Positions 5,282 to 35,538 of a stretch of 35,538 nucleotides of DNA are shown in pieces. The notes under the pieces are model-generated. The model was not told the origin of the DNA and made no database searches. It saw only the letters and a list, made by a program, of their open reading frames with translations. The DNA is from a virus: positions 1 to 35,538 of IMG/VR virus record IMGVR_UViG_3300031749_000019. One strand, written 5' to 3'. The position numbers were made by a program, and so were the translations under genes. Numbering within the stretch: position 1 is the stretch's first letter; each line of letters opens with the position of its first letter.

Positions 5282-5310
5282 TTGACAAAACTTTTTACTT
5301 ATTGTAGAAT
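5282..5310 (+). promoter_or_regulatory. Strong sigma70-type promoter
   Basis: TTGACA (5282-5287), a 17-base spacer and TAGAAT (5305-5310). The expected start is near 5317, only a few bases before an AGAAC-loop hairpin and terminator, so the leader begins with the attenuator. It would drive the coiled-coil and large virion protein genes. Confidence 0.8.
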
Positions 5311-5320
5311 TGCTCAGTAA

Positions 5321-5365
5321 GGTAGAAAAGAACTTTCGCCGACCTTTTATACGGGTCGGTTTTTT
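5321..5365 (+). promoter_or_regulatory. Leader attenuator, AGAAC family, copy 2
   Basis: Upstream hairpin: GGU (5321-5323) pairs with GCC (5338-5340, one G-U), GAAA (5325-5328) with UUUC (5334-5337), loop AGAAC. Overlapping terminator: CCGACC (5339-5344) pairs with GGTCGG (5354-5359), then six Ts (5360-5365). The two hairpins share bases 5339-5340, so they compete. Regulation is inferred; the pairings are seen directly. Confidence 0.75.
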
Positions 5366-5393: not shown

Positions 5394-6593
5394 ATGGCAG
5401 TCATTATAGACCCATACGGAAGAGGACAGTCAACATCAATGAGTCCTGGTCAGGCAATTCTAGGAGGTTATTCAGTACAGACAATTCCACAAAATGCTAG
5501 TGTGAGTCCTTATTACGCTAAGCCAAATACTTATTATTACGCCCCTGCAGGAAGAGTTCCTGGAGCAACAAGTGTTTCTTCAGGCGGTAGTACTCCTTCC
5601 GGTGGTGGTGCTCCTTCTTCTGGCGGCGGTGGTGCTCCTTCTGGTGGTGGTGGAGGAGACGGTGGTCAACCTTCTGGTCCCTCCGTGCAAGATTTAATCA
5701 ATCAAGCCTATGAAGCTCAAATGGGAGCACTTAATACTTTAGAACAGCAACTTCCGCAACAGGCAGAAGAGGGCAAACAGTTTTGGACGCAGGAATACAA
5801 TACTCTTGCTCCTCAATATCAACAGGAACAGCAAACAAGGCTTGGTGAACTTCAAACAAGAGAGGGACAAGCTCAACAGCAACAGCAACTGGAAACCGCT
5901 AAGGTCAAACAGCTCTTAAGTGAATTGCAAAATCGTCAGGCGGCACAACTTGCCTATACTGGCGGATATGGTTCAAGCGCCAATCCCGCTATGGCTGAAG
6001 CCTTTGGCAAACAAGCCTTTTCCTCTATGGGGACACTTGCTTATCAGGGACAAAATGTCCTTGATAATATAAATGCCGAAAGAGAAAGAGTTAAAAACTT
6101 TTATTCAACCGCCTTGGCCAATCTTCAAAGTCAAGTAGATACTGCTAAACAGCAAATTCAACAGGACTTAAACGAAAAATTAAACAATATCACTCAAGCT
6201 AAAGGTGAGGCAGGAAGGGCAAAGGCTCAGGCAACCCTTGAAGCGTGGCAGAATTACACCAATCAACTTTCTCAATTAAATTTAGAAAAACTAAATTGGC
6301 AGCAAAATCTTACGGCTTGGGCTTTGGAGAAAGGAAAAAGTTTAGATGCTGCTAAAAACTTTGCCTTGCAGGCAACCGGAGGATTTAATCCAGAAGCCTA
6401 TACTTTTAATCCTAATCAACCGATGACAGTTGGACTTGGACAACAGGCCTATTACACCCCACCGATTAGAGTTTCAAGAGCAACGGGTAACTACACAGAT
6501 GAGGAAAAAAGATTAGCAGCCCAGTTGGGTTTGACACCAGATCAGGTTAGACAGGTAAGTAACGGATTGGGGAATTATCAGACTTTTCAATAA
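5394..6593 (+). CDS. Coiled-coil virion protein (possible ejection or tail protein)
   Basis: A 399-residue protein. The N-terminal third is low-complexity with Gly/Ser-rich loops (about residues 60-100). Residues 105-330 form long Gln/Ala/Leu-rich helices with no Pro, predicted coiled coil. The C-terminus includes 'YTDEEKRLAAQLGLTPDQV', a small helical motif. It sits immediately before the 1259-residue protein, as small internal or ejection proteins do in podoviruses. AAAGGAG lies 7 bases before the ATG. It is preceded by its own promoter and attenuator. No catalytic motif. Confidence 0.55.
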   Translation: MAVIIDPYGRGQSTSMSPGQAILGGYSVQTIPQNASVSPYYAKPNTYYYAPAGRVPGATSVSSGGSTPSGGGAPSSGGGGAPSGGGGGDGGQPSGPSVQDLINQAYEAQMGALNTLEQQLPQQAEEGKQFWTQEYNTLAPQYQQEQQTRLGELQTREGQAQQQQQLETAKVKQLLSELQNRQAAQLAYTGGYGSSANPAMAEAFGKQAFSSMGTLAYQGQNVLDNINAERERVKNFYSTALANLQSQVDTAKQQIQQDLNEKLNNITQAKGEAGRAKAQATLEAWQNYTNQLSQLNLEKLNWQQNLTAWALEKGKSLDAAKNFALQATGGFNPEAYTFNPNQPMTVGLGQQAYYTPPIRVSRATGNYTDEEKRLAAQLGLTPDQVRQVSNGLGNYQTFQ

Positions 6594-9600: not shown

Positions 9601-10386
9601 GCAAATGAAGAACCAATGACTTGGCAAAATAGAATCTTTAATGCTTTTTCTCCATACAGAACTTCACCAGAAAAAGAACCAGCTAAACAGTTCTATGACC
9701 TTATTACTAATACTGCCAAAATTACCGGAGATAAACTTGCTTTAGCAAAACAAGCAGCAAGAAATATTAAATTGGAGAATCAAACGGCTCCTGTTAGAGC
9801 AGAAGACTTATCCGGAGCTAAGCAAAGAGCAATGGACAAAGCATATATTGATAATATTAAGGCAAAAATAGATCAGGCTGGTAGTGGATATACAGAATAT
9901 AAGGGTTATGCAATTTATTGGGATACACAAACACAGACAGCAAAGGTAGAACGACTTGTCGATATGGAAAAAGCACAAACAACAGCTGCTTATAATTTGG
10001 CAGCCGACCAACTAAAGGATGACAAAGATTGGCAAGGATGGATTGACGCAACACAAAAGTATATAGATTATCTCAAGGAATATCAGAAAACTCTTGATCC
10101 CAAAACTGATAAGGCTGCTTATGACAACATTGAAAATACTATTAGAGACAAAGAAAGATATATAGAAAAATATAAAAGTTATGGTGGATTTGAAAAGCCG
10201 AAAAAAGTTAAAATTCCTCGCCTCAAATTAAGTTCTGTTAAACCAATTCAGTCTAAAAAGATTAAACTCGGGGGTGATTTGTCCAAATACAAATTATCGG
10301 GCTTGAAATCCAATATAAAATCTGTTAAAATACAACCAATTAAGTTAGAACAGTATCCTAACAAAAGAACTTTGCAGGGGCGTTGA
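6607..10386 (+). CDS. Very large virion protein, probably ejected with DNA
   Basis: A 1259-residue protein, the largest in the window. Residues about 80-260 are Gly/Ala-rich with several hydrophobic segments (e.g. 'AAGGIVGGVVGGTSAGIGG'), suggesting membrane insertion. Residues 430-560 are helical. Near 575-600 the segment 'LRYNSMLTSPNTHIIN' matches a motif typical of large polyvalent proteins and podovirus internal virion proteins. The Lys-rich C-terminus (1190-1259) contains repeated 'K(I/L)..lKp' units. No lytic transglycosylase Glu motif was found. There is no clear ribosome binding site. The last codons double as part of attenuator copy 4. Confidence 0.6.
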   Translation: MAISKLKSLQDFLGNAVNTVSNYFSPTRPPSFVSPEAGSQSNNTASNYSPSPFVQDLAQIQGFIESPKQLNIVPTINPFKSTILGNIGNAVVNIPGGLVNTISQGITAPLFDVGQMIGRPFSGRQYNYNEMKNIGRLGMQRAGIVNPQAAQQQGTKYGFKQVAGNVAETVLPIASAYVPTGVTNIAKEGVAKSLGSTILQGAKEGAIQGAGYGLVSGLVGSREEQNNAKYALNILGNMAAGGIVGGVVGGTSAGIGGLIELTKRPRSVETQLRDSMGRWTEGETPIKPKGMTNAQWNFQLEFNKKYGRNPYTPVYPKDLEKAIKYEAGKKQIGLSVRDINKDINPLGETKTIAPENKLPKPEVPPTSEILPQGHQGNGLNPPSSSQISSSGEIINPTDPFYNINRLNISNEAKSQLKEKITGEFKPEFEKVTGEKMSADEIVKRAQSASDELIQTIGREKTAELGAAQLRLRQTIAQMVDSGKVDKDLLEKMRADKSFSANTARLQQQRTINADPKSPNGRLLQTMLKNILDVNEDLDGILAKAKGVDFNDPKQATEFYRQFIKPKAGDWIDKLRYNSMLTSPNTHIINATSNWQGTGLITPIQKTIEGSIDKILSVLNPSRERTRFTGEGLAYARGYYNPQTVKAAFKNMWSVLSGERISEYPDTRNIPLTTGGVGRVVENALDIGGRALEAVDQLFMTLTKGGLESSYKYRLGKGVKIAPSAEEEASNLLFRGKLTEPGQGWISNLIGAGGEAVKKVAHGDNATFRWMAKLTLPFVNIGTNLAKSGFEYNPVTGAFNLIGNSDKIAQAAKMLIGAGVVATAVPFALSDRLTFKLPSGKRGDAAREAGMLDYAIKIPTPKGEQWVQYTKMHPAIAWQLATVAALTDAIKNRKITEDVGQKIADGIWSVMQFGLDQTYFKNVSDFMSGVQGNVERFASIPSNYVSQFIPFRAFASWLNRIIDVYQRKPDTDASFITQSLQQIQSQLPILSKNVPVRTNANEEPMTWQNRIFNAFSPYRTSPEKEPAKQFYDLITNTAKITGDKLALAKQAARNIKLENQTAPVRAEDLSGAKQRAMDKAYIDNIKAKIDQAGSGYTEYKGYAIYWDTQTQTAKVERLVDMEKAQTTAAYNLAADQLKDDKDWQGWIDATQKYIDYLKEYQKTLDPKTDKAAYDNIENTIRDKERYIEKYKSYGGFEKPKKVKIPRLKLSSVKPIQSKKIKLGGDLSKYKLSGLKSNIKSVKIQPIKLEQYPNKRTLQGR
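10303..10331 (+). promoter_or_regulatory. Promoter inside the 3' end of the large virion gene
   Basis: TTGAAA (10303-10308), a 17-base spacer and TAAAAT (10326-10331), all within coding sequence. The predicted start, near 10338, would give a leader containing the attenuator at 10357-10405 and then the fibre gene. Confidence 0.5.
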
Positions 10387-10405
10387 AAGATTGACGCCCT
10401 TTTTT
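10357..10405 (+). promoter_or_regulatory. Leader attenuator, AGAAC family, copy 4 (overlaps a coding end)
   Basis: Upstream hairpin: CCU (10357-10359) with AGG (10376-10378), CAAA (10362-10365) with UUUG (10371-10374), loop AGAAC. Terminator: AGGGGCGU (10376-10383) with ACGCCCUU (10394-10401), eight pairs with one G-U, and six Ts (10400-10405). The shared AGG makes the hairpins exclusive. The stop codon of the large virion gene (10384-10386) lies in the terminator loop. Confidence 0.7.
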
Positions 10406-10425
10406 AGTGGAGAAACGGAGGAAAA

Positions 10426-13892: not shown

Positions 13893-14852
13893 ATGTCAAA
13901 AGAGACGCTGATTATTGACGGAAAAGGGACAGAAAAACTGATAAGACCAGTTGAGCAAGTTATCTTCCAAGACAAAAAACCTCCCGTTGTCGATGAAGAA
14001 AGTATCTTAAAACATCTTCAGCAGGCAAGAGAACTCTACAAAAGTATGGAAGTTGGCCAAAAAGAGGCAACAGTAGAGTTGAAACCAAAGTATCCTGATT
14101 TACCTGCTTTTATCTGGCTTCTAAATGACAGTCATATGGGGAGTGTGTTTACGGATTATGAAAGGTTAATTGCCGATTACAAAGTTGTTAAAGAAACTCC
14201 TAATTTTTACACAATTACTAACGGAGATGAGGTTGATAATTTTTTAGTGGATACTGCTCAGGCGGCTGGAGTTTATGAAGACTCTATCTCACCAGAACAG
14301 CAGGCACTTCTTGTTCAACGTCTTTTCAAAGAATTGGCAGGTCAAGAAAAATTATTGCTTTGTTCTTTTGGAAATCATAACGATTTTATTCAAAAGAGCG
14401 GGCTTTCTTTTGAGGGAACTTGGTTAAGGAATTTACCTTGTCCTGTTTTTAACTGCGGCGGGCTTCTAAACTTGAAATTTGGCAGTCAGGAATACAAGAT
14501 AGCCACTACTCATCGGTTTTGGGGTTTTAGTCGGTTAAATCCAACAAATGCCTGCAAAAGGTTTATGGAACACGTCTATCCTGATGCTGATATAGTTTAT
14601 TTAGGGCATTCTCATCAAAAAGAATATCTCTCTTTTCAAAGGGGTGGAAAAGAAAGACTGGCAATTATCGGCGGTTGTTACAAAACAGATGATATTTTTG
14701 GCCCAAAAAGAGGATTGGGTGGCGGCGGACAGATGGGCGGTTTAGTCTTAGAGCTAAGACCAGACAAAAGAGATATGCACGTCTTTGATTCAGTTCAAGA
14801 AGCAAGCGAATATTTTGAGTTACTAAGAGAAATAAAAAATGGAAGTAAATAA
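13893..14852 (+). CDS. Calcineurin-like metallophosphoesterase
   Basis: A 319-residue protein from the ATG at 13893 (upstream frame extension lies in a structured leader and begins with a non-ATG codon). The five metal-binding motifs are in order: D-S-H in LNDSHMG, GDEVD, GNHND, an isolated His in THRFWG and GHSH. This is the calcineurin-type phosphoesterase fold with a two-metal site. Residues 1-65 are an extra N-terminal part. Phage members act on nucleic acid ends, nucleotides or phosphoproteins; the substrate cannot be read here. It overlaps the methyltransferase gene by 14 bases, so the two are co-translated, suggesting DNA-directed work. Confidence 0.8.
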   Translation: MSKETLIIDGKGTEKLIRPVEQVIFQDKKPPVVDEESILKHLQQARELYKSMEVGQKEATVELKPKYPDLPAFIWLLNDSHMGSVFTDYERLIADYKVVKETPNFYTITNGDEVDNFLVDTAQAAGVYEDSISPEQQALLVQRLFKELAGQEKLLLCSFGNHNDFIQKSGLSFEGTWLRNLPCPVFNCGGLLNLKFGSQEYKIATTHRFWGFSRLNPTNACKRFMEHVYPDADIVYLGHSHQKEYLSFQRGGKERLAIIGGCYKTDDIFGPKRGLGGGGQMGGLVLELRPDKRDMHVFDSVQEASEYFELLREIKNGSK

Positions 14853-15861: not shown

Positions 15862-15928
15862 TTGACAAAAAGGTTAGGGAGTGGTAATTTCAAGATATGA
15901 AAAAGACTTGTGGTAATTGTGATATAAT
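15862..15928 (+). promoter_or_regulatory. Two candidate promoters for the early region
   Basis: The first is TTGACA (15862-15867), 17 bases, TAATTT (15885-15890). The second is an extended -10 element TGATATAAT (15920-15928) without a good -35. The second starts a few bases before the terminator at 15936. Confidence 0.55.
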
Positions 15929-15935
15929 AAAAACA

Positions 15936-15972
15936 CCCACCGAGATTGGCCACAAGCCTGCGGTGGGTTTTT
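15936..15972 (+). terminator. Intrinsic terminator with a competing upstream strand
   Basis: CCCACCG (15936-15942) pairs with CGGTGGG (15961-15967), then five Ts. In its loop CCACAAG (15950-15956) is complementary to CTTGTGG (15907-15913), which is transcribed only from the upstream promoter; that pairing would enclose and disturb the terminator. Confidence 0.65.
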
Positions 15973-16902: not shown

Positions 16903-16931
16903 TTGACAATCTTATTTAATCGTGCTATACT
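16903..16931 (+). promoter_or_regulatory. Consensus promoter giving a leaderless HTH transcript
   Basis: TTGACA (16903-16908), a 17-base spacer, TATACT (16926-16931). The expected start (about 16938-16939) coincides with the ATG of the HTH gene. Confidence 0.82.
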
Positions 16932-17117: not shown

Positions 17118-17146
17118 TTGACATACCTTGTTATATGTTGTATGAT
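17118..17146 (+). promoter_or_regulatory. Early operon promoter
   Basis: TTGACA (17118-17123), 17 bases, TATGAT (17141-17146), followed by AAAGGAGG before the gene at 17179. It probably drives the run of closely packed small genes that follows. Confidence 0.82.
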
Positions 17147-22461: not shown

Positions 22462-22862
22462 AACAAGAACAGACGGTAAAAGACCTGCTGGAAAATACTG
22501 GAAAGCCCATAAGCCGGGCAATGCTTGATAATGGTTATTCACCAGCGACAGCCAAGAACCCGTGTGAACTTACAGAATCAAAAGGCTGGAAAGAACTTCT
22601 TGAGAAGTATTTGCCGGATGAGAAGCTTCTTAAAAAGCATGATGAAGCACTAGAAGCAAAGAAGTGGAATGATTTTACCGGAGAGAGAGAAGAGGATCAC
22701 TCCATCAGATTAAAAGCAATTGAGTTAGGATACAAACTTAAAGGCAAACTAAATGAAGGAAGTGTCAATATCTCTGGTGAAAAAGTGATAGCGATACTTG
22801 GAGGAATAACGAATGACATACATAATAACAACGGCGACTCGCAAAATTCTGAAACTAAATAA
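22449..22862 (+). CDS. terS: Terminase small subunit
   Basis: A 137-residue protein. Residues 1-50 form a helix-turn-helix-like DNA-recognition part ('ISRAMLDNGYSPATAKNP'), residues 52-105 a helical oligomerisation part ending 'HSIRLKAIELGYKLKGKL', a pattern frequent in small terminases. It directly precedes and overlaps the large subunit by 50 bases. It recognises packaging sites on phage DNA and stimulates the large subunit. No ribosome binding site; coupling from the upstream frame is likely. Confidence 0.8.
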   Translation: MPTLKQEQTVKDLLENTGKPISRAMLDNGYSPATAKNPCELTESKGWKELLEKYLPDEKLLKKHDEALEAKKWNDFTGEREEDHSIRLKAIELGYKLKGKLNEGSVNISGEKVIAILGGITNDIHNNNGDSQNSETK

Positions 22863-23997
22863 GCGTATTCGGGGAGTTTCCGGAGGAACTTCAGCTTCTA
22901 AAACCATCTCAATTCTTCTTTGGTTAATTGATCGGGCCCAGTCGGCAAAAGAAAAAGAGATAATTTCGGTAGTTTCAGAATCTATGCCACATCTTCGGAA
23001 GGGTGCAATGAGAGACTTTTTAGAGATAATGCAACAGCACCATTACTTCAAAGACGACAGGTGGGAGAAAACCAATTCTACTTATCGCTTTGAGTCCGGT
23101 TCGATTATTGAATTCTTTGGGGTTGAGAATTGGGAAAAGGTCAAAGGAGCAAGAAGGGATATTTTGTTTATTAATGAGGCAAACCATATTTCTTTTGAAA
23201 CATACAATCAGCTTGAGGTAAGGACAAAGAAGATAGTTTGGTTAGATTGGAACCCAGAGAGCGAGTTTTGGTGGTATGAGGAAGTTTTACCAAAGCAGGA
23301 TGTTGATTTTATTACTTTAACTTACAAAGACAATGAGGCGCTTGATCCCCAAATTGTTGCTTCGATTGAATCAAGAAAAGAGAACAAAAACTGGTTTCGG
23401 GTCTATGGAGAAGGGCAACTTGGAGAAGTAGAAAACAAGATTTACAAAGACTGGCAAATAATAGACGAAATTCCTCATGAGGCAAGACTTGAAAGGTATG
23501 GTTTGGATTTCGGTTATACAGCTGATCCCACAGCGATTGTGGCGGTTTATTATTACAACGGCGGCTATATTTTAGATGAGATAACTTATCAAAATGGACT
23601 TTCTAACAAACAAATAGCGGATATTTTATTGAACATTCCTTCAGCTTTAGTTATCGCAGATGCGGCTGAGCCCAAAAGTATCGATGAGGTAAGAGGTTAT
23701 GGGGTGAATATTCTACCTTCGCAAAAAGGTCAAGGAAGTGTTCTTCAGGGAATTCAGTATGTTCAACAGCAGAGGATATCAGTTACCAAGCGAAGCCTCA
23801 ATCTCTTAAAAGAATATCGAAATTATCTTTGGCAGACAGACAAAGGTGGGAAAACAATAAATGAGCCAGGAGTAATCTTTAACCATGCGATGGATGCTGT
23901 TCGTTATGCGCTAAATAGTTTAACTTCTAATCAAAGTAATTATCAAGAATATGTCAAAAAGAACCAAGGAGTCCGAGATCAAGACCTCGGACTATAA
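22813..23997 (+). CDS. terL: Terminase large subunit (PBSX/Terminase_3 type)
   Basis: A 394-residue packaging motor and nuclease. ATPase: deviant Walker A GGTSASKT (24-31) and Walker B ILFINE (117-122) with catalytic Glu122. Nuclease: GLDFGYTADPTA (about 228-240), IADAAEP (about 285) and NHAMDAVRY (near 360), the RNase H-like acidic residues. The order and length fit PBSX/SPP1-like terminases, which often cut headful-style. It overlaps the small subunit and the next gene by about 50 bases each. The first residues before 'RGVSGGTSASKT' are short, as in this family. Confidence 0.95.
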   Translation: MTYIITTATRKILKLNKRIRGVSGGTSASKTISILLWLIDRAQSAKEKEIISVVSESMPHLRKGAMRDFLEIMQQHHYFKDDRWEKTNSTYRFESGSIIEFFGVENWEKVKGARRDILFINEANHISFETYNQLEVRTKKIVWLDWNPESEFWWYEEVLPKQDVDFITLTYKDNEALDPQIVASIESRKENKNWFRVYGEGQLGEVENKIYKDWQIIDEIPHEARLERYGLDFGYTADPTAIVAVYYYNGGYILDEITYQNGLSNKQIADILLNIPSALVIADAAEPKSIDEVRGYGVNILPSQKGQGSVLQGIQYVQQQRISVTKRSLNLLKEYRNYLWQTDKGGKTINEPGVIFNHAMDAVRYALNSLTSNQSNYQEYVKKNQGVRDQDLGL

Positions 23998-24277: not shown

Positions 24278-24285
24278 TGTATAAT
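24258..24285 (+). promoter_or_regulatory. Portal operon promoter
   Basis: TTGAAA (24258-24263), a 16-base spacer, TATAAT (24280-24285). The start near 24292 coincides with the first stem strand of the attenuator. Confidence 0.75.
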
Positions 24286-24290
24286 AAAGA

Positions 24291-24336
24291 CGGTTCAAAA
24301 GAACTTTGACCGCAAGATATTACTTGCGGTTTTTTT
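24291..24336 (+). promoter_or_regulatory. Leader attenuator, AGAAC family, copy 3 (before the portal)
   Basis: Upstream hairpin: CGGU (24291-24294) with ACCG (24309-24312), CAAA (24296-24299) with UUUG (24305-24308), loop AGAAC. Terminator: ACCGCAAG (24309-24316) with CUUGCGGU (24323-24330), then seven Ts (24330-24336). They share ACCG. The portal ATG follows five bases later without a ribosome binding site. Confidence 0.8.
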
Positions 24337-24340
24337 ATTT

Positions 24341-26359
24341 ATGGCAGACAAAGTAAACAAAAAAGAAGAAAACAAGTTGGCCTACACAGACCTTCTAAAG
24401 GAAGTAGTTGAGCATTATAACGAAGGTTTTGCAACTCTTCAAACTCGCATAACCCACAAGGATCAAGGATTTAACGAGTATGATAATTTATTCCGTTCGT
24501 ATATTCAGAAAGACAAATGGCCGTTTAATTCAAGGATTTTTGTTCCTCTTTCCTTCCAATCGGTTTTTTCAAAAGGAACAAGACAATTAATCGGCAAGAT
24601 AAAAGGCAGGCTGGTGGCAACTCAATATGGCAACGAATTAGCTTCAAGAATAGGGACAGAGCTTCTGTCAGCCCAATACGATGATCATGATTACTTTTTT
24701 GAAGAGCCATTAGTTTCAAAATGGTTTAGGATGGATCAAAATGCAAGAAAATATGGAGCGTCTTTTGGTTTAGTGGCTTGGCGGCGGGAGGTTGACCATA
24801 ATGGCAAGGTTGTTTTTGACGGTCCAACATTTGAGCCAATAGACAAAAGCAAAATAATGTTTCCCGATGGCGTTTCTTCAATTTCTGATTCTGAATGGGT
24901 GATAATTGAGAGAACGGCAAGAATAGACGAACTTGAAAGGATAAATGAAATTAGTGTTGCCAAGAATGGTCAGCCCGCATATCTTCAATCGGCAATAGAT
25001 AAGTTAAAAGAGATGAAGAACAATCAGGTTTCAAATCAAAATCCCTCGACTAACACTAGGATTAGAAATTTAACAGACAGAAGAAAAGGTTTTAGAATTT
25101 TGACTGAATACCGAAAGGACGTTTGGATTACTTGGTGCCCAGACGTTGGCAGTGAAGAAGATGCCCCCGGACTTATTTTAAGAGTGATTGAAAATCCATA
25201 CAATCACGGACTTATTCCAATTATCCGGCTTGTTTATATTCCGATTGATGATGATATTTACGGGGTTTCGGAGCTTGAGCCAGTTAGAAGCGAACAGAAG
25301 GCGACCAATGCTTTGGTTTCAGGTTTCATTGAATCGGTTTCAACCGAACTTTACCCAATAATCAAAGGACATCCGACTAATGTTGACTGGAAGACGATTG
25401 AATTCAAACCAAGAGCTGCGTGGTTGATGAATAACCCCTCTGCTGATGTGGTGAGGCTTGAAGGAGCAATTACTTTTACCAGAAACTTTGTAGAAGCGTA
25501 TAGGCTTCTTAAATCTTCTTTCGCCGAAGGAATGGGCGAAACAACTGCTGATGTTTCTAATATGGCGGCGCTGACGGCCGACAAGACAGCTACCGAAGTT
25601 AGGGACACCGCTAGTTTGCGGACAGCTAGAGATAATCTTAATAAACTTTTCTTGTCCGCCGCTATTACTAAGATGTATTCACTTTGGTGGAGTATGGATC
25701 AGCAATTCTTGACCGACAAAAAAGTTATCAAAGTTGCCGGCAAGGAAGCGATTGAGTATTTTGTTAATGAAGGATTGCACGACTATACTCTTAACGATGA
25801 GGGTTTTGACTTTATTAACAGCTTTATGGAAGAAAATCCGGGAATGGACTTTGAAACTGCCTATGAAACTTTGAGGACTGATGGAAAACTTGAACAATTT
25901 GCCGTTCCTATTTATCCGGTAAAGGTGGGGAACGAGGTTTTGCCTAAACTCCAGCTTGAGGTAGACGGTAAAAGCGGGTTTTTGTCGGTTGAGAACAAAG
26001 ATTTGACTGGTCAATACAAATTCTCGGTTGACTTAAATACTATTGGTGCACCGAATACTGAAAAGGAAGCGGCCAATCTTAACCAGTTTGCTCAACAATT
26101 GGCAGAGTTGCAGGCAAAAGGACTTTTGGGAGATTACAAAGTCAAATTTAAGGAATTGTATGAGACACTTGGTGAGAAGTTGCAAATTCACGGAGTTGAT
26201 AATTTCTTTGAGAAAGTAGTACAACAACCGCAATCGCCTATGCCACCACAAGGACAAGGAATGCCCCCGCAGGGAGAGATGATCCCGCCAGAAGCCACAC
26301 AGGGCGCTCAACCGCCTATTACTCCGCAGACCTTAATGGGAGGAATGCCAAATGGCTAA
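24341..26359 (+). CDS. Portal protein
   Basis: A 672-residue protein in the portal position between terminase and scaffold. The middle part has 'YGASFGLVAWRRE' and 'GPTFEPIDKSKIMFPD', with further portal-like segments 'GLIPIIRLVYIPIDDDIYGVS' and 'ADVSNMAALTADKTATEV', and a Pro/Gln/Gly-rich tail (about 630-672). These are typical of large P22/podovirus-type and SU10-like portals, which form the twelve-fold DNA channel. No ribosome binding site; the ATG abuts the U-tract of the attenuator, so initiation must be non-SD. Confidence 0.82.
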   Translation: MADKVNKKEENKLAYTDLLKEVVEHYNEGFATLQTRITHKDQGFNEYDNLFRSYIQKDKWPFNSRIFVPLSFQSVFSKGTRQLIGKIKGRLVATQYGNELASRIGTELLSAQYDDHDYFFEEPLVSKWFRMDQNARKYGASFGLVAWRREVDHNGKVVFDGPTFEPIDKSKIMFPDGVSSISDSEWVIIERTARIDELERINEISVAKNGQPAYLQSAIDKLKEMKNNQVSNQNPSTNTRIRNLTDRRKGFRILTEYRKDVWITWCPDVGSEEDAPGLILRVIENPYNHGLIPIIRLVYIPIDDDIYGVSELEPVRSEQKATNALVSGFIESVSTELYPIIKGHPTNVDWKTIEFKPRAAWLMNNPSADVVRLEGAITFTRNFVEAYRLLKSSFAEGMGETTADVSNMAALTADKTATEVRDTASLRTARDNLNKLFLSAAITKMYSLWWSMDQQFLTDKKVIKVAGKEAIEYFVNEGLHDYTLNDEGFDFINSFMEENPGMDFETAYETLRTDGKLEQFAVPIYPVKVGNEVLPKLQLEVDGKSGFLSVENKDLTGQYKFSVDLNTIGAPNTEKEAANLNQFAQQLAELQAKGLLGDYKVKFKELYETLGEKLQIHGVDNFFEKVVQQPQSPMPPQGQGMPPQGEMIPPEATQGAQPPITPQTLMGGMPNG

Positions 26360-26660
26360 AACAAAAGAGACAGAAAAAGAGATTGAACTTGAGTATTGCC
26401 AGCAGATTAAGGATTTTGTTAATTCCGAGGCGTGGAAAAAGTATGCTCTGCCGATGATTAGTCAAGTTGTTACCAAAGAACTTCCTAAGCCAGTTGGGCC
26501 AGATTGGGAAGATAAATACCGTTATGCCTTTGCTCTTTCTGATGCCTTTGCAATGATAATCAATACCTTGCAGAATTTATCTGGCAAGGATGAGTTTATC
26601 AAGAAAATGGAAAAGTTTTTAGAGGAAGGAAAACCAGATGCCCCCGTCGACGAAGCCTGA
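26352..26660 (+). CDS. Small head-module protein, unknown
   Basis: A 102-residue acidic helical protein overlapping the portal stop by 8 bases. Contains one long helix to residue 40 and another in 'DKYRYAFALSDAFAMIINTLQNL'. GGGAGGAATG lies upstream. Position between portal and scaffold suggests an assembly or chaperone role, without sequence proof. Confidence 0.6.
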   Translation: MAKTKETEKEIELEYCQQIKDFVNSEAWKKYALPMISQVVTKELPKPVGPDWEDKYRYAFALSDAFAMIINTLQNLSGKDEFIKKMEKFLEEGKPDAPVDEA

Positions 26661-26856
26661 TATAAAATTTGAAAAAGTTAAAGCTGGAGATAAAGTTAAA
26701 GAAGTCGAGACTTGGTATCTTGGACAAGGGACGGAAATTCATAATAGCGTTGGTTGTGATCATTATTGGATACAGGTTACGGGAACACAGGTACAATGTA
26801 AAAAATGTGGATTAGGTTTGTTTGGCCACGCTGTTGACGGAAAACTAAAAAAGTGA
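26638..26856 (+). CDS. Small zinc-ribbon protein
   Basis: A 72-residue protein with GCDHYW (about 39-44), then CKKC at 54-57 and a late GH; a plausible Cys/His zinc site. GGAAGG upstream. It overlaps the previous gene by 23 bases. The promoter for the scaffold gene is inside its last codons. Found in head modules as small 'decoration-like' or unknown proteins. Confidence 0.6.
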   Translation: MPPSTKPDIKFEKVKAGDKVKEVETWYLGQGTEIHNSVGCDHYWIQVTGTQVQCKKCGLGLFGHAVDGKLKK

Positions 26857-26862
26857 TATAAG
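26834..26862 (+). promoter_or_regulatory. Scaffold operon promoter
   Basis: TTGACG (26834-26839), 17 bases, TATAAG (26857-26862) with an extended TGA before it. The transcript would begin at strand 1 of the attenuator. Confidence 0.75.
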
Positions 26863-26866
26863 GGGA

Positions 26867-26945
26867 TTGTAAATAGTTTTTAGAGAACCTAGAAGCCATT
26901 TACAAGTTTGCGAGGAAACTCGTGGATTTGTAAATGGCTTTTTTT
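26867..26945 (+). promoter_or_regulatory. Three-strand attenuator before the scaffold gene
   Basis: Strand 1 TTGTAAAT (26867-26874) and strand 3 TTGTAAAT (26928-26935) are identical; each can pair with strand 2 ATTTACAA (26898-26905). Pairing 2:3 extends to a perfect 12-base-pair terminator (26894-26905 with 26928-26939) followed by seven Ts; its loop holds a GAAA-capped mini-hairpin (26910-26921). Pairing 1:2 would prevent the terminator. Confidence 0.75.
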
Positions 26946-27000
26946 ATGCCATTCGTTTCGCCAGCGTTATTGGTAGGGAGGAGGTGAATAACCAAATCTT

Positions 27001-27822
27001 ATGGATGAAGAAAATTTAAAGGGAGTAGAAGGAGAAGAGAAAACTCCTTCAGAGGAACAACCCGCCTCAGAAGAAAAAACCACTCAGAAAACTGAGGATG
27101 TTCTTTCACAATCGGATTTCCCAGAGGATGCAGACAAGCAGAAACAAGCATTTTACTCGATGAGGAAGAAGATTGAAGAGTTGGAAAGTAAACTCTCGCA
27201 ACAGGAACAAGATGCAGACCTGATCAATATGGCGAGAGGCACTTCCGAAATACCTACGGGTTATGTACCCCAGCCTTCTACACCCGGAGTAATGTTTGAT
27301 GAAAGCGATCCTGCTACTCAAGCGTTTTTGAGCGAGGCGCAAAGAGCGAAGCAAGAGGCTATGGCGGCAAGACAAGCAGCCATGGCGGCTCAGGCGCAAA
27401 TGGAAGACTTTGAGGCTTGGCAAAAATACCCAGAATTAAATCCAAAGTCGCCCAACAAAAACAAGGCTTTTATCGATGATGTCCAAAAGGAATTTTTGGC
27501 AGAACGATTAAAAGCAATCCAGCAAGGAAGACAACCAAAAAGGTTAGTCGAGGTAGCTGAGCAAGTTCAAAAACACTATGAGGAAATTCGGAACCAAGCA
27601 AAAGAACAGGCGCTTTCTGAATCCAAAGCTACTATGGAACAAAAGGAAGCAGCCAGCCTTGAAAGTCGGGGAACAAAAGTTGATTTGACAGGTAGTGCTG
27701 ACGAATCACGAATCGAGGAGTTGAGAGCAAGAGTAAGGAGAGGCGATACAAACGCTCTAACCGAGCTTAATAAGTTATCGGAACCTTACATTCAATCAAT
27801 TCCTGATGAAGCCCCCTTTTAA
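27001..27822 (+). CDS. Scaffolding protein
   Basis: A 273-residue Glu/Gln/Lys-rich, highly helical, soluble protein with no cysteine and no membrane segment, located between the portal and the capsid gene. The N-terminal 50 residues are acidic and disordered; residues 55-80 and 115-145 (Ala/Gln-rich) are coiled coil; the C-terminus is basic then acidic. This is the normal composition of internal scaffolds that template the procapsid and leave or are cleaved. GGAGG lies 16 bases upstream, unusually far. Its own promoter and attenuator precede it. Confidence 0.8.
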   Translation: MDEENLKGVEGEEKTPSEEQPASEEKTTQKTEDVLSQSDFPEDADKQKQAFYSMRKKIEELESKLSQQEQDADLINMARGTSEIPTGYVPQPSTPGVMFDESDPATQAFLSEAQRAKQEAMAARQAAMAAQAQMEDFEAWQKYPELNPKSPNKNKAFIDDVQKEFLAERLKAIQQGRQPKRLVEVAEQVQKHYEEIRNQAKEQALSESKATMEQKEAASLESRGTKVDLTGSADESRIEELRARVRRGDTNALTELNKLSEPYIQSIPDEAPF

Positions 27823-28084: not shown

Positions 28085-29444
28085 ATGGCGCAATTAGCTG
28101 GTGTTCATCAGACCTTAAAATAATAGGGTCCGCTGGGAGCAATCCCTTCGAAAAAATAGCTCTTTGAAATCGGTGAAAGTCTGAACGAATTGATAATCAT
28201 CTCAATTTATGATATACCAGCAGTGGTATGCGTAAAGAAGAGAAGATTACAATGTCGAAGATAACGCCGAGCCAAGATATACGACTTGCTTGGCTGGCAG
28301 GAATAATAGACGGAGAAGGAAGTATCTCAGTTCCCTCTTTTGTTCTTTATCCTGCTGGCACAAGTTCGCTATCGGAGCGAATAATCCCAATTATAAAAAT
28401 GGAAAATGGACGGGGAGGAAAAGACGTATATCGGGTGTAACGACTGAGTAAGAGCTTCTTCAAATACCGATGTGAAGATAAAGCCACAGTCTGGTCTATA
28501 TAGAAATATATAGAGGCTAGCAGAAATGACTAGCCCCGTTCATAAGAACGAGTAACAACAACGACATGGATACGACCAGAAGAGAGGATCTTTTGGATCG
28601 TATTATTGATATCTCTCCTGACAAAAACTATTTGTCCACCATCATGGGGACGGTTGAGGCAACTCAAACGTTGCATGAGTGGACAGAATATTATCAGGCA
28701 CGTCCAACCTCAAACAGCACAAGCGGTGAGGGAGATGAAAATTCTTTTAGCGACCTTTCTGTTCCGACCAAGAAAAACAACATTTGCCAAATTATAAAGG
28801 AAGTGTTTGCTGTTTCTCGAACGGACATTAAAGTCAATAAGGTTTCTCCTAAAGATGCTTATGCTCGTGAGATGGGTTGGGCCATGAGGAGATATAAGAA
28901 TAAGGAAGAGTATGCCATTTTGAGAGGCACAAAAGCCTCTGGTTCATCGGGTGTTGCTAGAGAAATGAACGGGATTATTGCCACGGTTATAACCGATGGT
29001 TTATATACTGCTCGTGCATCTGGTACATCCATGTCTGAAGAACGCTTTAGATACATGATGAAGGCGTCCTGGGACAAGACCGATGAACAGCTTGTAGACT
29101 TGCTTTTGACAACGGGAGCAAGAAAACAAGACTTTGGCAGGTTCTTTACAACTTCAACACCGAAGACTATTCCTGCAGACGACAAGAGACTGGTTCAAGC
29201 CTTGGATGTCATTGAGACAGACTTTGGCTCGCTGGTTGAAATTCGTGCTCATAAGGATATGCCAGATGGCGCAGTTTTGGCTGTTAGAAAAGATTTGCTC
29301 AAGAAAGCATATCTTGATACACCTCAACACGTACCGAATGGTATTACCGGCGATAACAGGAAAGGTCATATCGTTGGCGAGTTAACAGTTCAAGTAGATA
29401 CGGCGAGAGCAATGGTCTACGAGACTGGATTCAATTTAGCTTAA
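28085..29444 (+). CDS. Major capsid protein (SU10/DUF5309-like), split by a group I intron
   Basis: Exon 1 is 28085-28115 (MAQLAGVHQT plus one base) and exon 2 is 28564-29444. Joining them gives codon TAC and a 303-residue protein, in frame. The sequence 'REDLLDRIIDISP' near residue 20 and 'SWDKTDEQLVDLL', 'VRKDLLKKAYLDTP' and the short C-terminus after 'YETGFNLA' fit the HK97-fold SU10/DUF5309 capsid family. Exon 2 alone would begin at an internal Met and lose the N-terminus. No ribosome binding site is adjacent. It is the shell protein, with scaffold upstream and a terminator (29467-29530) downstream. Confidence 0.85.
28116..28563 (+). ncRNA. Group I intron in the capsid gene
   Basis: About 448 nt. 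P1: exon GACCT (28111-28115) pairs with GGGTC (28126-28130), ending in the required U-G at the splice site. P2-like: GGGA-GCAA-TCCC (28135-28146). P3: ATCGGT (28169-28174) with ACCGAT (28466-28471). P7: GACTG (28442-28446) with CAGTC (28487-28491). Peripheral hairpins at 28188-28207, 28214-28229, 28495-28514 (GAAA loop), 28515-28535 and 28537-28550. The intron ends with G28563. The ordering P3, P7, P3', P7' is that of group I; subgroup is not assigned. Confidence 0.88.
28228..28440 (+). pseudogene. Truncated LAGLIDADG homing endonuclease in the intron
   Basis: A 70-residue frame with one LAGLIDADG motif (LAWLAGIIDGEGSI, about residues 23-36), then only about 34 more residues ending 'GGKDVYRV'. 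Normal single-motif enzymes are well over 100 residues and need the downstream DNA-binding sheet, so this is almost certainly an inactive remnant. The end abuts the P7 strand of the intron, suggesting an internal deletion that kept the ribozyme core. The start overlaps the P6-like hairpin. Confidence 0.8.
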
Positions 29445-29466
29445 TAGGGAAATTAAGCTAGTAGTC

Positions 29467-29530
29467 TAGGGTAGGAGACTTAAAAATTAGTAGTATTGCT
29501 CCCTACCCTACCCGTAGGGGGCATTTTTTT
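29467..29530 (+). terminator. Terminator after the capsid gene with competing strand
   Basis: Terminator: GCTCCCTAC (29498-29506) pairs with GTAGGGGGC (29514-29522), followed by A and seven Ts. Strand 1 TAGGGTAGGAG (29467-29477) can instead pair with CTCC-C-TACCCTA (29499-29510, one bulged C), which uses the terminator's 5' strand. A separate perfect hairpin, TAGCTTAAT (29437-29445) with ATTAAGCTA (29452-29460), spans the capsid stop. The capsid and downstream genes may thus be differentially read. Confidence 0.75.
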
Positions 29531-29538
29531 ATAAATGT

Positions 29539-30102
29539 ATGGGCAAATGTGTAATTTGCGGAAAAGAACTTACATCCGACCAGGAAAAATGTTGTAGTGT
29601 TAAGTGTAGAAACACTTATGCCAGATCTTTTTTTAATGAAGAAACACGGAAGAAAATGAGTTTGGCAAAAAAATTTAACCCCTCTTTCTATTGGTTGGGG
29701 AAACATAGATCAGAGGCGGTTAGGCAAAAGATAAGCGAGAAATTAAAGGGGCGTCCAGGACATAGTCCGCCTAAATGGGCAATAGAAATTTTTAAGAGGA
29801 ACGCTGTTCATCGAAGCGGAAAAGATCATTATAACTGGAAGGGTGGAATATCTTTTGAGCCATATTCAGTAGATTGGACGGAAACACTAAAAAGAAGCAT
29901 TCGGGAAAGAGATCATTATATTTGTCGGGTGTGCAATAAGATACAGGGAGATGAGGTATTTTGTGTGCATCATATAGATTATGACAAGTTGAATTGTGAC
30001 CCAAATAACTTGATTACTCTTTGTAGGAAGTGCCATGTTAAAACTAATTACAATAGGGATTACTGGAAGAAATATTTTAGACAACTTTTATGGAAGAGAT
30101 AA
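29539..30102 (+). CDS. Free-standing HNH homing endonuclease with NUMOD3-like motifs
   Basis: A 187-residue protein. Residues 4-24 are a zinc finger (CVIC and CCSVKC). Residues 35-43 (KKMSLAKKF) and 60-72 (VRQKISEKLKGRP) match NUMOD3-like DNA-binding repeats. Residues 125-165 are an HNH domain (CRVC, VHHIDYDKLNCDPNNLITL, CRKCH). This is the layout of phage homing endonucleases. It sits directly behind the capsid terminator, so it may be the partner that mobilised the capsid intron locus, or an independent invader. No ribosome binding site. Confidence 0.85.
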   Translation: MGKCVICGKELTSDQEKCCSVKCRNTYARSFFNEETRKKMSLAKKFNPSFYWLGKHRSEAVRQKISEKLKGRPGHSPPKWAIEIFKRNAVHRSGKDHYNWKGGISFEPYSVDWTETLKRSIRERDHYICRVCNKIQGDEVFCVHHIDYDKLNCDPNNLITLCRKCHVKTNYNRDYWKKYFRQLLWKR

Positions 30103-35307: not shown

Positions 35308-35317
35308 GTGATATAAT
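35290..35317 (+). promoter_or_regulatory. Promoter for the small-protein/connector operon
   Basis: TTGAAT (35290-35295), 16 bases, extended -10 TGATATAAT (35309-35317). The start near 35324 is just before the attenuator. Confidence 0.75.
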
Positions 35318-35325
35318 CTAAAGCA

Positions 35326-35369
35326 GGTTAGAAAAGAACTTTCACCGCCTTTTGTTGAGGCGGTTTTTT
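35326..35369 (+). promoter_or_regulatory. Leader attenuator, AGAAC family, copy 1
   Basis: Upstream hairpin: GGU (35326-35328) with ACC (35344-35346), GAAA (35331-35334) with UUUC (35340-35343), loop AGAAC. Terminator: ACCGCC (35344-35349) with GGCGGT (35359-35364), followed by six Ts. ACC is shared. Directly after the U-tract is a four-codon frame (35371-35385) that ends in the AAGGTGA ribosome binding site of the next gene. Confidence 0.8.
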
Positions 35370-35390: not shown

Positions 35391-35538
35391 ATGGCTTTTA
35401 AATATGTTCAAAGGAAATCTGCTAAAGCAAAGAAAAGAGCGGGTAAAAGTTTTGTGGCTAGTGGCAAAAAACCAGTATTAGGACAAGGGGGTAGATTTAA
35501 GGCTCTGAAGGGAGCATTGGCTAAAAAGGGAGCCTCTA
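35391..35538 (+). CDS. Small basic phage protein, N-terminal part (continues at base 1)
   Basis: The ATG at 35391 follows AAGGTGA by 6 bases and encodes MAFKYVQ before entering the 127-base overlap; the protein continues at base 1 and ends at 216, giving 78 residues in all. It is the first gene of an operon that leads into the connector and stopper. Confidence 0.85.
   Translation, partial: MAFKYVQRKSAKAKKRAGKSFVASGKKPVLGQGGRFKALKGALAKKGAS
35412..35538. repeat. Second copy of the 127-base end overlap
   Basis: This is the same sequence as bases 1-127. It continues in frame the gene that begins at 35391, so joining the two ends restores one uninterrupted reading frame. That supports circularity over a tandem duplication. 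Confidence 0.93.

Follow-up and report, generated by a model that had tools for sequence, protein, structure and literature searches.

A putative antitermination element with an AGAAC-loop hairpin, repeated at five late promoters of a tailed phage and present in its relatives

In the RAT/BglG-SacY-LicT systems, a leader hairpin overlaps the foot of an intrinsic terminator, the two folds are mutually exclusive and termination is the default, as set out in two papers (PMC9981650, PMC3369931). The RAT sequence is conserved and 29-30 nt long, according to the second (PMC3369931). The same paper describes ANTAR leaders (EutV, NasR, AmiR), in which a small loop-specific hairpin overlaps a terminator at several sites per regulon, the ANTAR targets being two tandem hairpins with hexaloops that have A at position 1 and G at position 4 (PMC3369931). 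The put RNA of HK022 is about 70 nt long, has two stem-loops and antiterminates without dedicated protein factors, putL being located just past its promoter (PMC9378689). The element described here was found in a window of 35,538 nucleotides, i.e. the whole stretch of DNA that was analysed (IMG/VR record IMGVR_UViG_3300031749_000019, positions 1 to 35,538). Five sites of this window show the same order: a sigma-70-type promoter, a hairpin with an AGAAC loop near +1 and a terminator whose foot overlaps the hairpin. This is probably a phage-wide late-gene antitermination element, a cis switch present in five copies over the virion genes and activated by a factor via the hairpin.

The window is a tailed-phage genome whose likely genes are on the + strand. 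An identical 127-base direct repeat is found at its ends (1-127 is the same as 35412-35538); therefore, the genome is probably complete, circular or circularly permuted, and about 35.4 kb long. The genes that frame the element are the following:

22813-23997, + strand: large terminase gene (PHROGs)
24341-26359, + strand: portal gene (PHROGs)
27001-27822, + strand: probable scaffold gene, assigned by position only, between the portal and major capsid genes, with a homologue in five other phages
28566-29444, + strand: major capsid protein gene (PHROGs)

A PHROGs search with the 27001-27822 gene gave no match. The capsid protein is 25-28% identical to the listed capsids of Pseudomonas and other phages, for instance that of Krylovvirus tf, the record of which compares its own genes to LUZ24. 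Nine IMG/VR records were retrieved with the portal, whose identity to that of the window is 50-85%. They were treated as five further lineages: G001 (L001), G002 (L064), G003 (L065), G004 (L066) and G008 (L070). L067, L068 and L071, which have the same leader sequences, were grouped with G004, and G007 (L069) with G008. Portal and capsid searches of the genome contigs collection retrieved no relative. In the window, the major capsid gene is split after MAQLAGVHQT (about 28085) by a match to a Group I intron (RF00028, 28106-28513; 35.3 bits, E 3e-7, under the gathering score of 50), the gene being uninterrupted in the relatives. Moreover, an HNH endonuclease gene (29539-30102) has been inserted after the capsid gene, before the conserved gene that follows; in G008, only about 69 bases lie between the capsid gene and the latter.

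The leader of the scaffold gene comprises the following features:

26834-26862, + strand: scaffold-gene promoter (-35 TTGACG, 17-nt spacer, TG-A-TATAAG)
26857-26862, + strand: -10 of this promoter, TATAAG, with a canonical +1 at about 26869, within strand 1 of the hairpin
26867-26905, + strand: predicted antiterminator hairpin, 16 pairs with one A/C mismatch and a counterpart in all six phages (strand 1 26867-26883; AGAAC loop 26884-26888; strand 2 26889-26905)
26891-26945, + strand: intrinsic terminator (stem 26891-26914/26919-26942, GAAA loop, T-run 26939-26945)

The promoter scores 5/6 at its -35 and has an extended -10; a -10 is found at the same place in 6/6 phages. The hairpin, TTGTAAATAGTTTTTAG-AGAAC-CTAGAAGCCATTTACAA, folds at -13.6 kcal/mol, compared with a mean of -2.8 (z -6.5, p 0.001) for shuffles restricted to the sequence 5' of the terminator arm. 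The terminator has a 24-pair stem of -32.9 kcal/mol followed by seven T, and its 5' arm has 14 paired bases in common with the hairpin. As the chain grows, the predicted fold is the hairpin for lengths of 40 to 65 nt and becomes the terminator once the leader is complete, both in the window and in L001-L004. The fold of the whole 26860-26950 region reaches -38 kcal/mol (z -7.4), a value equalled by 0/200 shuffles. Just 5' of the promoter, a gene conserved in all six phages (26638-26856) encodes a 72-aa protein with a CxH...CxxC motif.

The initial annotation had proposed a three-strand attenuator in this leader, based on an 8-mer present twice and pairing each time with a segment located in between. 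This triple does exist (TTGTAAAT at 26867 and 26928, ATTTACAA at 26898), and TTGTAAAT/ATTTACAA/TTGTAAAT is the only one of its kind within 80 nt in the window. The isolated triple was rejected as the core of the finding, since 12 of 100 dinucleotide-shuffled versions of the window also contain at least one. The 8-mers belong to two more extensive folds that are alternatives to each other: the terminator described as 12 bp has a stem of 24 pairs, and the 8-bp pairing of strands 1 and 2 is part of a hairpin of 16 pairs. The leader had also been viewed as independent, which does not hold, since the unit recurs at four other sites of the window and in all relatives for which the region is covered. 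The attenuator itself is supported by its conserved position, by compensatory changes and by its repetition at other late promoters.

These four further sites (AGAAC at 5329, 10366, 24300 and 35335) each hold AAAAGAACTTT. They are listed below with an early-type promoter for contrast:

5305-5365, + strand: site before the 399-aa ORF at 5394, syntenic with G002 29250; 24.7 bits (-10 TAGAAT 5305-5310; hairpin 5321-5340, AGAAC at 5329; terminator 5338-5360 plus T-run)
10326-10406, + strand: tail-fibre site, syntenic with G008 376; 27.1 bits (-10 TAAAAT 10326-10331; hairpin core 10357-10378, AGAAC at 10366; terminator 10376-10401)
24280-24331, + strand: portal-gene site; 26.8 bits (-10 TATAAT 24280-24285; hairpin 24291-24312, AGAAC at 24300; terminator 24308-24331)
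35312-35369, + strand: site before the late genes that cross the contig end; 23.7 bits (-10 TATAAT 35312-35317; hairpin 35323-35348, AGAAC at 35335; terminator 35344-35364)
16903-16931, + strand: early-type promoter, TTGACA-17-TATACT, without element or terminator

All five sites of the window precede virion-type genes, namely the portal gene, the scaffold gene, the 399-aa ORF, a C1q-domain fibre gene and the late genes crossing the contig end. By contrast, neither the early-type promoter nor a second strong promoter of the early region (17118-17146) is followed by the element or by a terminator. The tail-fibre leader is longer, with a gap of 19 nt before the folded hairpin. It also carries, 5' of the AGAAC hairpin, a second conserved AGAACAGTAT (10340-10360 in the window, oriented 340-360 in G008). 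Other units of the window have a different anatomy. At 15923-15972, a TG-A-TATAAT promoter is followed about 6 nt later by a CCCACCG/CGGTGGG terminator, with no AGAAC hairpin; this is perhaps a small RNA or another attenuator. At 29464-29530, the post-capsid terminator is preceded by TAGGGTAGGAG, which is complementary to its 5' arm CTCCCTACCCTA, and another three-strand arrangement is possible there; none was seen in the folds of the post-capsid terminators of the relatives.

Considering the window and its relatives, the element is found at 19 distinct sites in six phages, a count that omits the near-identical records G005, G006, G007 and G009 as well as a loop-variant unit of G003 (14719). 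The portal and scaffold positions are each occupied in 6/6 phages. The other sites of the relatives precede the homologue of the 358-999 gene (G002 and G004), the homologue of the 5394 ORF (G002) and the fibre gene (G008). The loop deviates at the scaffold sites of G001 (AGAAA) and G003 (AAATA). The loop-variant unit of G003 (oriented 14719-14769) is likewise made of a promoter, a hairpin and a terminator, with an AAAGA loop, before the homologue of the 358-999 gene. Together with the AAATA of the scaffold site, this may indicate that the loop is drifting in G003.

A covariance model, R1, was built from fourteen 22-nt cores cut at fixed distances from the loop, excluding the bulge-less scaffold cores of the window (26884) and G008 (17794). 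R1 recovered three sites outside its training set (G002 24365, G002 29250 and G008 376), each of them located between a -10 and a terminator. Other weak hits of R1 (E 0.08 to 0.7) were not counted unless they were known sites; the scaffold hairpin of the window, devoid of a bulged A, obtained 14.8 bits (E 0.27). With these three added to the fourteen, the consensus of the 17 aligned cores is a P1 helix of 3 pairs, a 2/1 internal loop, a P2 helix of 4 pairs and an AGAAC loop, this pentaloop being present in 15 of the 17. Single folds often reduce this internal loop to a bulged A in the 5' strand, and such a hairpin may resemble the coat-protein operators of RNA phages.

In these 17 cores, 90.8% of the cells are paired and 7/7 pairs changed on both sides. 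Both-side changes were counted in 40 cells versus 11.1 in shuffles, covariation is 0.845 versus 0.277 (0/500 shuffles as good) and registers with a slid strand are at most 52% paired. Since sites were found by the loop plus at least two P2 pairs, P2 was partly pre-selected; P1 is free of this selection, and its pairs changed on both sides in 5, 6 and 11 rows. Furthermore, 94.4% of the cells of the scaffold terminator stem are paired in the six phages, and 14 of its 24 pairs changed on both sides. Therefore, both alternative folds are kept while the letters change. One could object that each unit encodes a short, stable non-coding RNA, about 45-80 nt long, whose 3' end is set by the terminator, the late genes being driven elsewhere, as small RNA genes are likewise composed of a promoter, a compact folded RNA and a terminator. 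However, the units are located directly 5' of late genes, the sites within one genome preserve the pairing but not the sequence outside the loop, and the overlap of strand 2 would serve no purpose in such an RNA, which makes this explanation very unlikely.

The association of these features was also searched on control readings of the same phages, using a rule that combines AGAAC, three adjacent pairs and a hairpin of -9 kcal/mol or lower before a T-run. In the six phages (145,122 bases), the coding strand gave 17 hits, each accompanied by a -10 that scores 5/6 or more; two of these hits come from a single leader, which has an AGAAC at 10347 and another at 10366. When the sequences were read as reverse complement, reversed or complemented, 0, 1 and 0 hits were obtained, respectively, none with a -10 of this quality. 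In other viral contigs (1.08 Mb of strand), seven hits to the rule were obtained, three of them with a -10, in a set that is biased upward because most of its contigs were fetched for holding AAAAGAACTTT.

Hairpins start 4-10 nt past the -10 at 17 of the 19 sites (19 and 30 nt at the fibre sites), and T-runs start 33-73 nt past the predicted +1. At all 19 sites, 3-14 bases are paired both in the hairpin, on its 3' strand, and in the terminator, on its 5' arm, and the terminator is the more stable fold (-10.9 to -34.4 kcal/mol versus -2.7 to -14.5 for the hairpin); therefore, the default state of the element would be 'off', i.e. termination. Taken singly, hairpins differ from shuffles with p of 0.05 or less at 7/19 sites, short ones being marginally stable and the fold at 10366 no better than shuffles; the combined p is 2e-8, with related sites counted as independent. 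In several full-length leaders, P2 and the loop can coexist with the terminator, only P1 being strictly exclusive.

These terminators might merely end upstream transcripts, with the scaffold stem acting as an RNase III or mRNA-stability element, the 5' hairpin protecting the 5' end and the overlap reflecting space economy. A long duplex would suit RNase III, and the scaffold-site stem has 22-24 pairs in most phages (-25 to -34 kcal/mol), far more than a terminator needs. Nevertheless, terminators are ordinary, with 8-11 pairs, at four of the five sites of the window, the overlap between hairpin and terminator is kept at 19/19 sites and a promoter lies 5' of the terminator at each of them, so that this terminator would shut it down unless bypassed. 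We thus consider this processing function quite unlikely.

The position of the transcription start also bears on the proposal that RNA initiated de novo at the scaffold promoter lacks part of strand 1, whereas readthrough RNA from the portal promoter contains all of it, the two being handled differently. As proposed, the promoter starts right at strand 1, its canonical +1 (about 26869) being inside this strand. De novo RNA would indeed lack part of strand 1 and lose 2/16 pairs, but the hairpin would be largely retained (a change from -13.1 to -12.0 kcal/mol). A start only 1-2 nt later (26870-26871) weakens it to -8.1 or -7.0. Over the 19 sites, and before the 3' arm of the terminator is made, the four loop-proximal pairs form with a mean computed probability of 0.857 in de novo RNA versus 0.771 in readthrough RNA, i.e. 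with 60 nt of upstream RNA added (Wilcoxon p 0.12). This probability is much lower in readthrough RNA at 5329 and G008 376, and higher at G003 2632.

According to a factor-free model, the start site would set the completeness of strand 1 and thereby make termination differ between the two RNAs. This would agree with the start at strand 1, with the weakening of the hairpin to -8.1 kcal/mol or less stable values from 26870 onward and with the strong difference computed at 2/19 sites. The other data speak against it: only 0-2 pairs are lost at the predicted starts of the 19 sites, no systematic difference is found (p 0.12) and the terminator is more stable in either RNA. We hold such a model to be highly improbable as the basis of the switch. 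Start sites seem placed to include the hairpin rather than to cut it, and the proposed contrast of the two RNAs is no general feature, although it may exist at single sites.

We propose the following mechanism for the factor-activated element. Host RNA polymerase would initiate at the sigma-70-type promoter and the first 20-40 nt of the RNA would form the hairpin, with the P1 foot (often GG/CC), usually a 5' bulged A, the four pairs of P2 and the AGAAC loop. The 3' strand of P1 would also form the foot of the intrinsic terminator, within its 5' arm. Without the factor, the more stable terminator would displace P1 and late-gene transcription would stop. The factor would most probably be a phage protein synthesised at an earlier stage of infection; it would hold the AGAAC hairpin, so that P1 blocks the terminator foot and the polymerase continues, whether it started locally or upstream. 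A weak hairpin, a conserved loop and bulge and a stronger terminator would be the expected look of a factor-dependent switch. The anatomy, the repetition, the synteny, the compensatory changes in both helices and the order of the energies are seen in the sequences and their folds, whereas termination and antitermination themselves, the need for a trans-acting factor and its identity as a phage protein are inferred. The further reading, in which each late promoter is fused to a protein-recognised AGAAC hairpin and a dedicated phage RNA-binding factor switches the whole late regulon on together, is in our opinion evenly balanced.

Candidates for this factor were looked for among the proteins of the phages. 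Conserved small ORFs are found beside the sites: 108 aa at 23951, 102 aa at 26352 and 72 aa at 26638, the CxH...CxxC motif of the 72-aa protein being present in G004 too. None of the three gave a convincing match in Pfam or PHROGs, nor did the profiles of the 108-aa and 72-aa proteins in PDB. A PDB hit of the 108-aa profile (2e-9) was rejected, as it is limited to 26 residues of a repeat protein and none of its stretches passes by itself. The structures predicted for the 108-aa and 72-aa proteins are too poor for interpretation (mean pLDDT 63 and 58). These searches gave no link between the three proteins and RNA, and no candidate for the factor emerged. Known families were also searched in the seven phage records, which are mostly fragments: CAT_RBD (PF03123) matched 0/7 records and 4/14 control genomes, the ANTAR domain matched 0/7 records and no control genome either, and the NusG family (PF02357) matched 0/7 records, the fragments of which may lack the gene, and 10/14 controls.

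A hairpin acting in cis on RNA polymerase, as put does in HK022, would dispense with a factor and make the enzyme ignore the next terminator and possibly later ones. No antiterminator protein was recognised in the profile searches, the conserved loop and bulge could contact the polymerase, and the element is located just past the promoter, like putL, put needing no dedicated protein factors (PMC9378689). However, the same paper gives put about 70 nt and two stem-loops (PMC9378689), versus a single hairpin, mostly about 22 nt long, at our sites, and a polymerase-modifying RNA needs no base sharing with a terminator, yet 19/19 sites have it. Such a put-like action is therefore unlikely, and we favour activation by a factor through the hairpin.

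At gathering scores, Rfam gave no match in the window or in four loci holding other sites, and the best match below threshold for 26840-26960 was the SpF19 sRNA (22.3 bits versus 60). A search of the open-licence literature, with partial coverage, retrieved no paper on such an element; as far as found, the AGAAC late-promoter switch thus appears undescribed. Viral contigs were scanned for TATAAT...AAAAGAACTTT...TTTTTT, which gave 53 stretches; by eye, the matches looked like coding sequence or chance, the exceptions being L011 and L032, where other terminators are found. In two narrower scans (3 and 11 stretches), the matches with structure came from the known relative G002 alone, apart from one in L108 that resembles an end-of-gene terminator. 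In a further scan (89 stretches, 80 loci listed), 4 of the 81 matches re-read passed for hairpin and terminator; among those listed, three are from G002 and the fourth, L182, has a weak fold. Finally, R1 was run on four named-phage loci, selected by distant capsid homology, and on L105, where its best score, 18.5 bits, is inside a coding gene. Hence, the scans run did not find the element outside this clade.

Known phage late switches are mostly promoter-acting or polymerase-modifying. If the proposed mechanism is true, the late genes of these phages would be turned on by antitermination rather than by a new sigma factor, a new polymerase or a Q-type protein, and their control would lie in an alternative RNA fold that recurs at five late promoters within a single genome. 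The covariance model offers a direct route to other users of the element and to its factor. Moreover, the 19 leaders make the mechanism testable by reporter and in vitro transcription assays.

Compared with known systems, the element shares with lambda Q and N and with Xp10 p7 the control of phage gene classes at promoter-near terminators. Those factors modify the polymerase via DNA, NusA or boxB sites, whereas what is conserved here is an RNA structure that overlaps the terminator and is alternative to it. Like HK022 put, the element would be a phage RNA that defeats terminators from just past the promoter; unlike put, it has a 22-nt core with a single stem-loop, and put serves early genes and distant terminators whereas this hairpin shares bases with its own terminator. 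That terminator is an intrinsic one by its sequence, a stable stem followed by a T-run. As in ANTAR leaders, a small loop-specific hairpin lies over a terminator at multiple sites, but there is one hairpin, with an AGAAC pentaloop, instead of the tandem hexaloops; in the tail-fibre leader, the second AGAAC (10347) has three adjacent pairs and no hexaloop pair. The element differs from RAT by its AGAAC pentaloop, four pairs, usually bulged A, length of about 22 nt and position near +1, as well as by its occurrence at the late promoters of a phage, five times per genome. The single alternative hairpin overlapping the terminator foot, as in RAT and BglG-SacY, is found at 19/19 sites, which corresponds to the topological half of the RAT definition. 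By analogy, the element would work like RAT, and the type of control that RAT and ANTAR systems exert on sugar or amine genes would be used here as a temporal program for virion genes.
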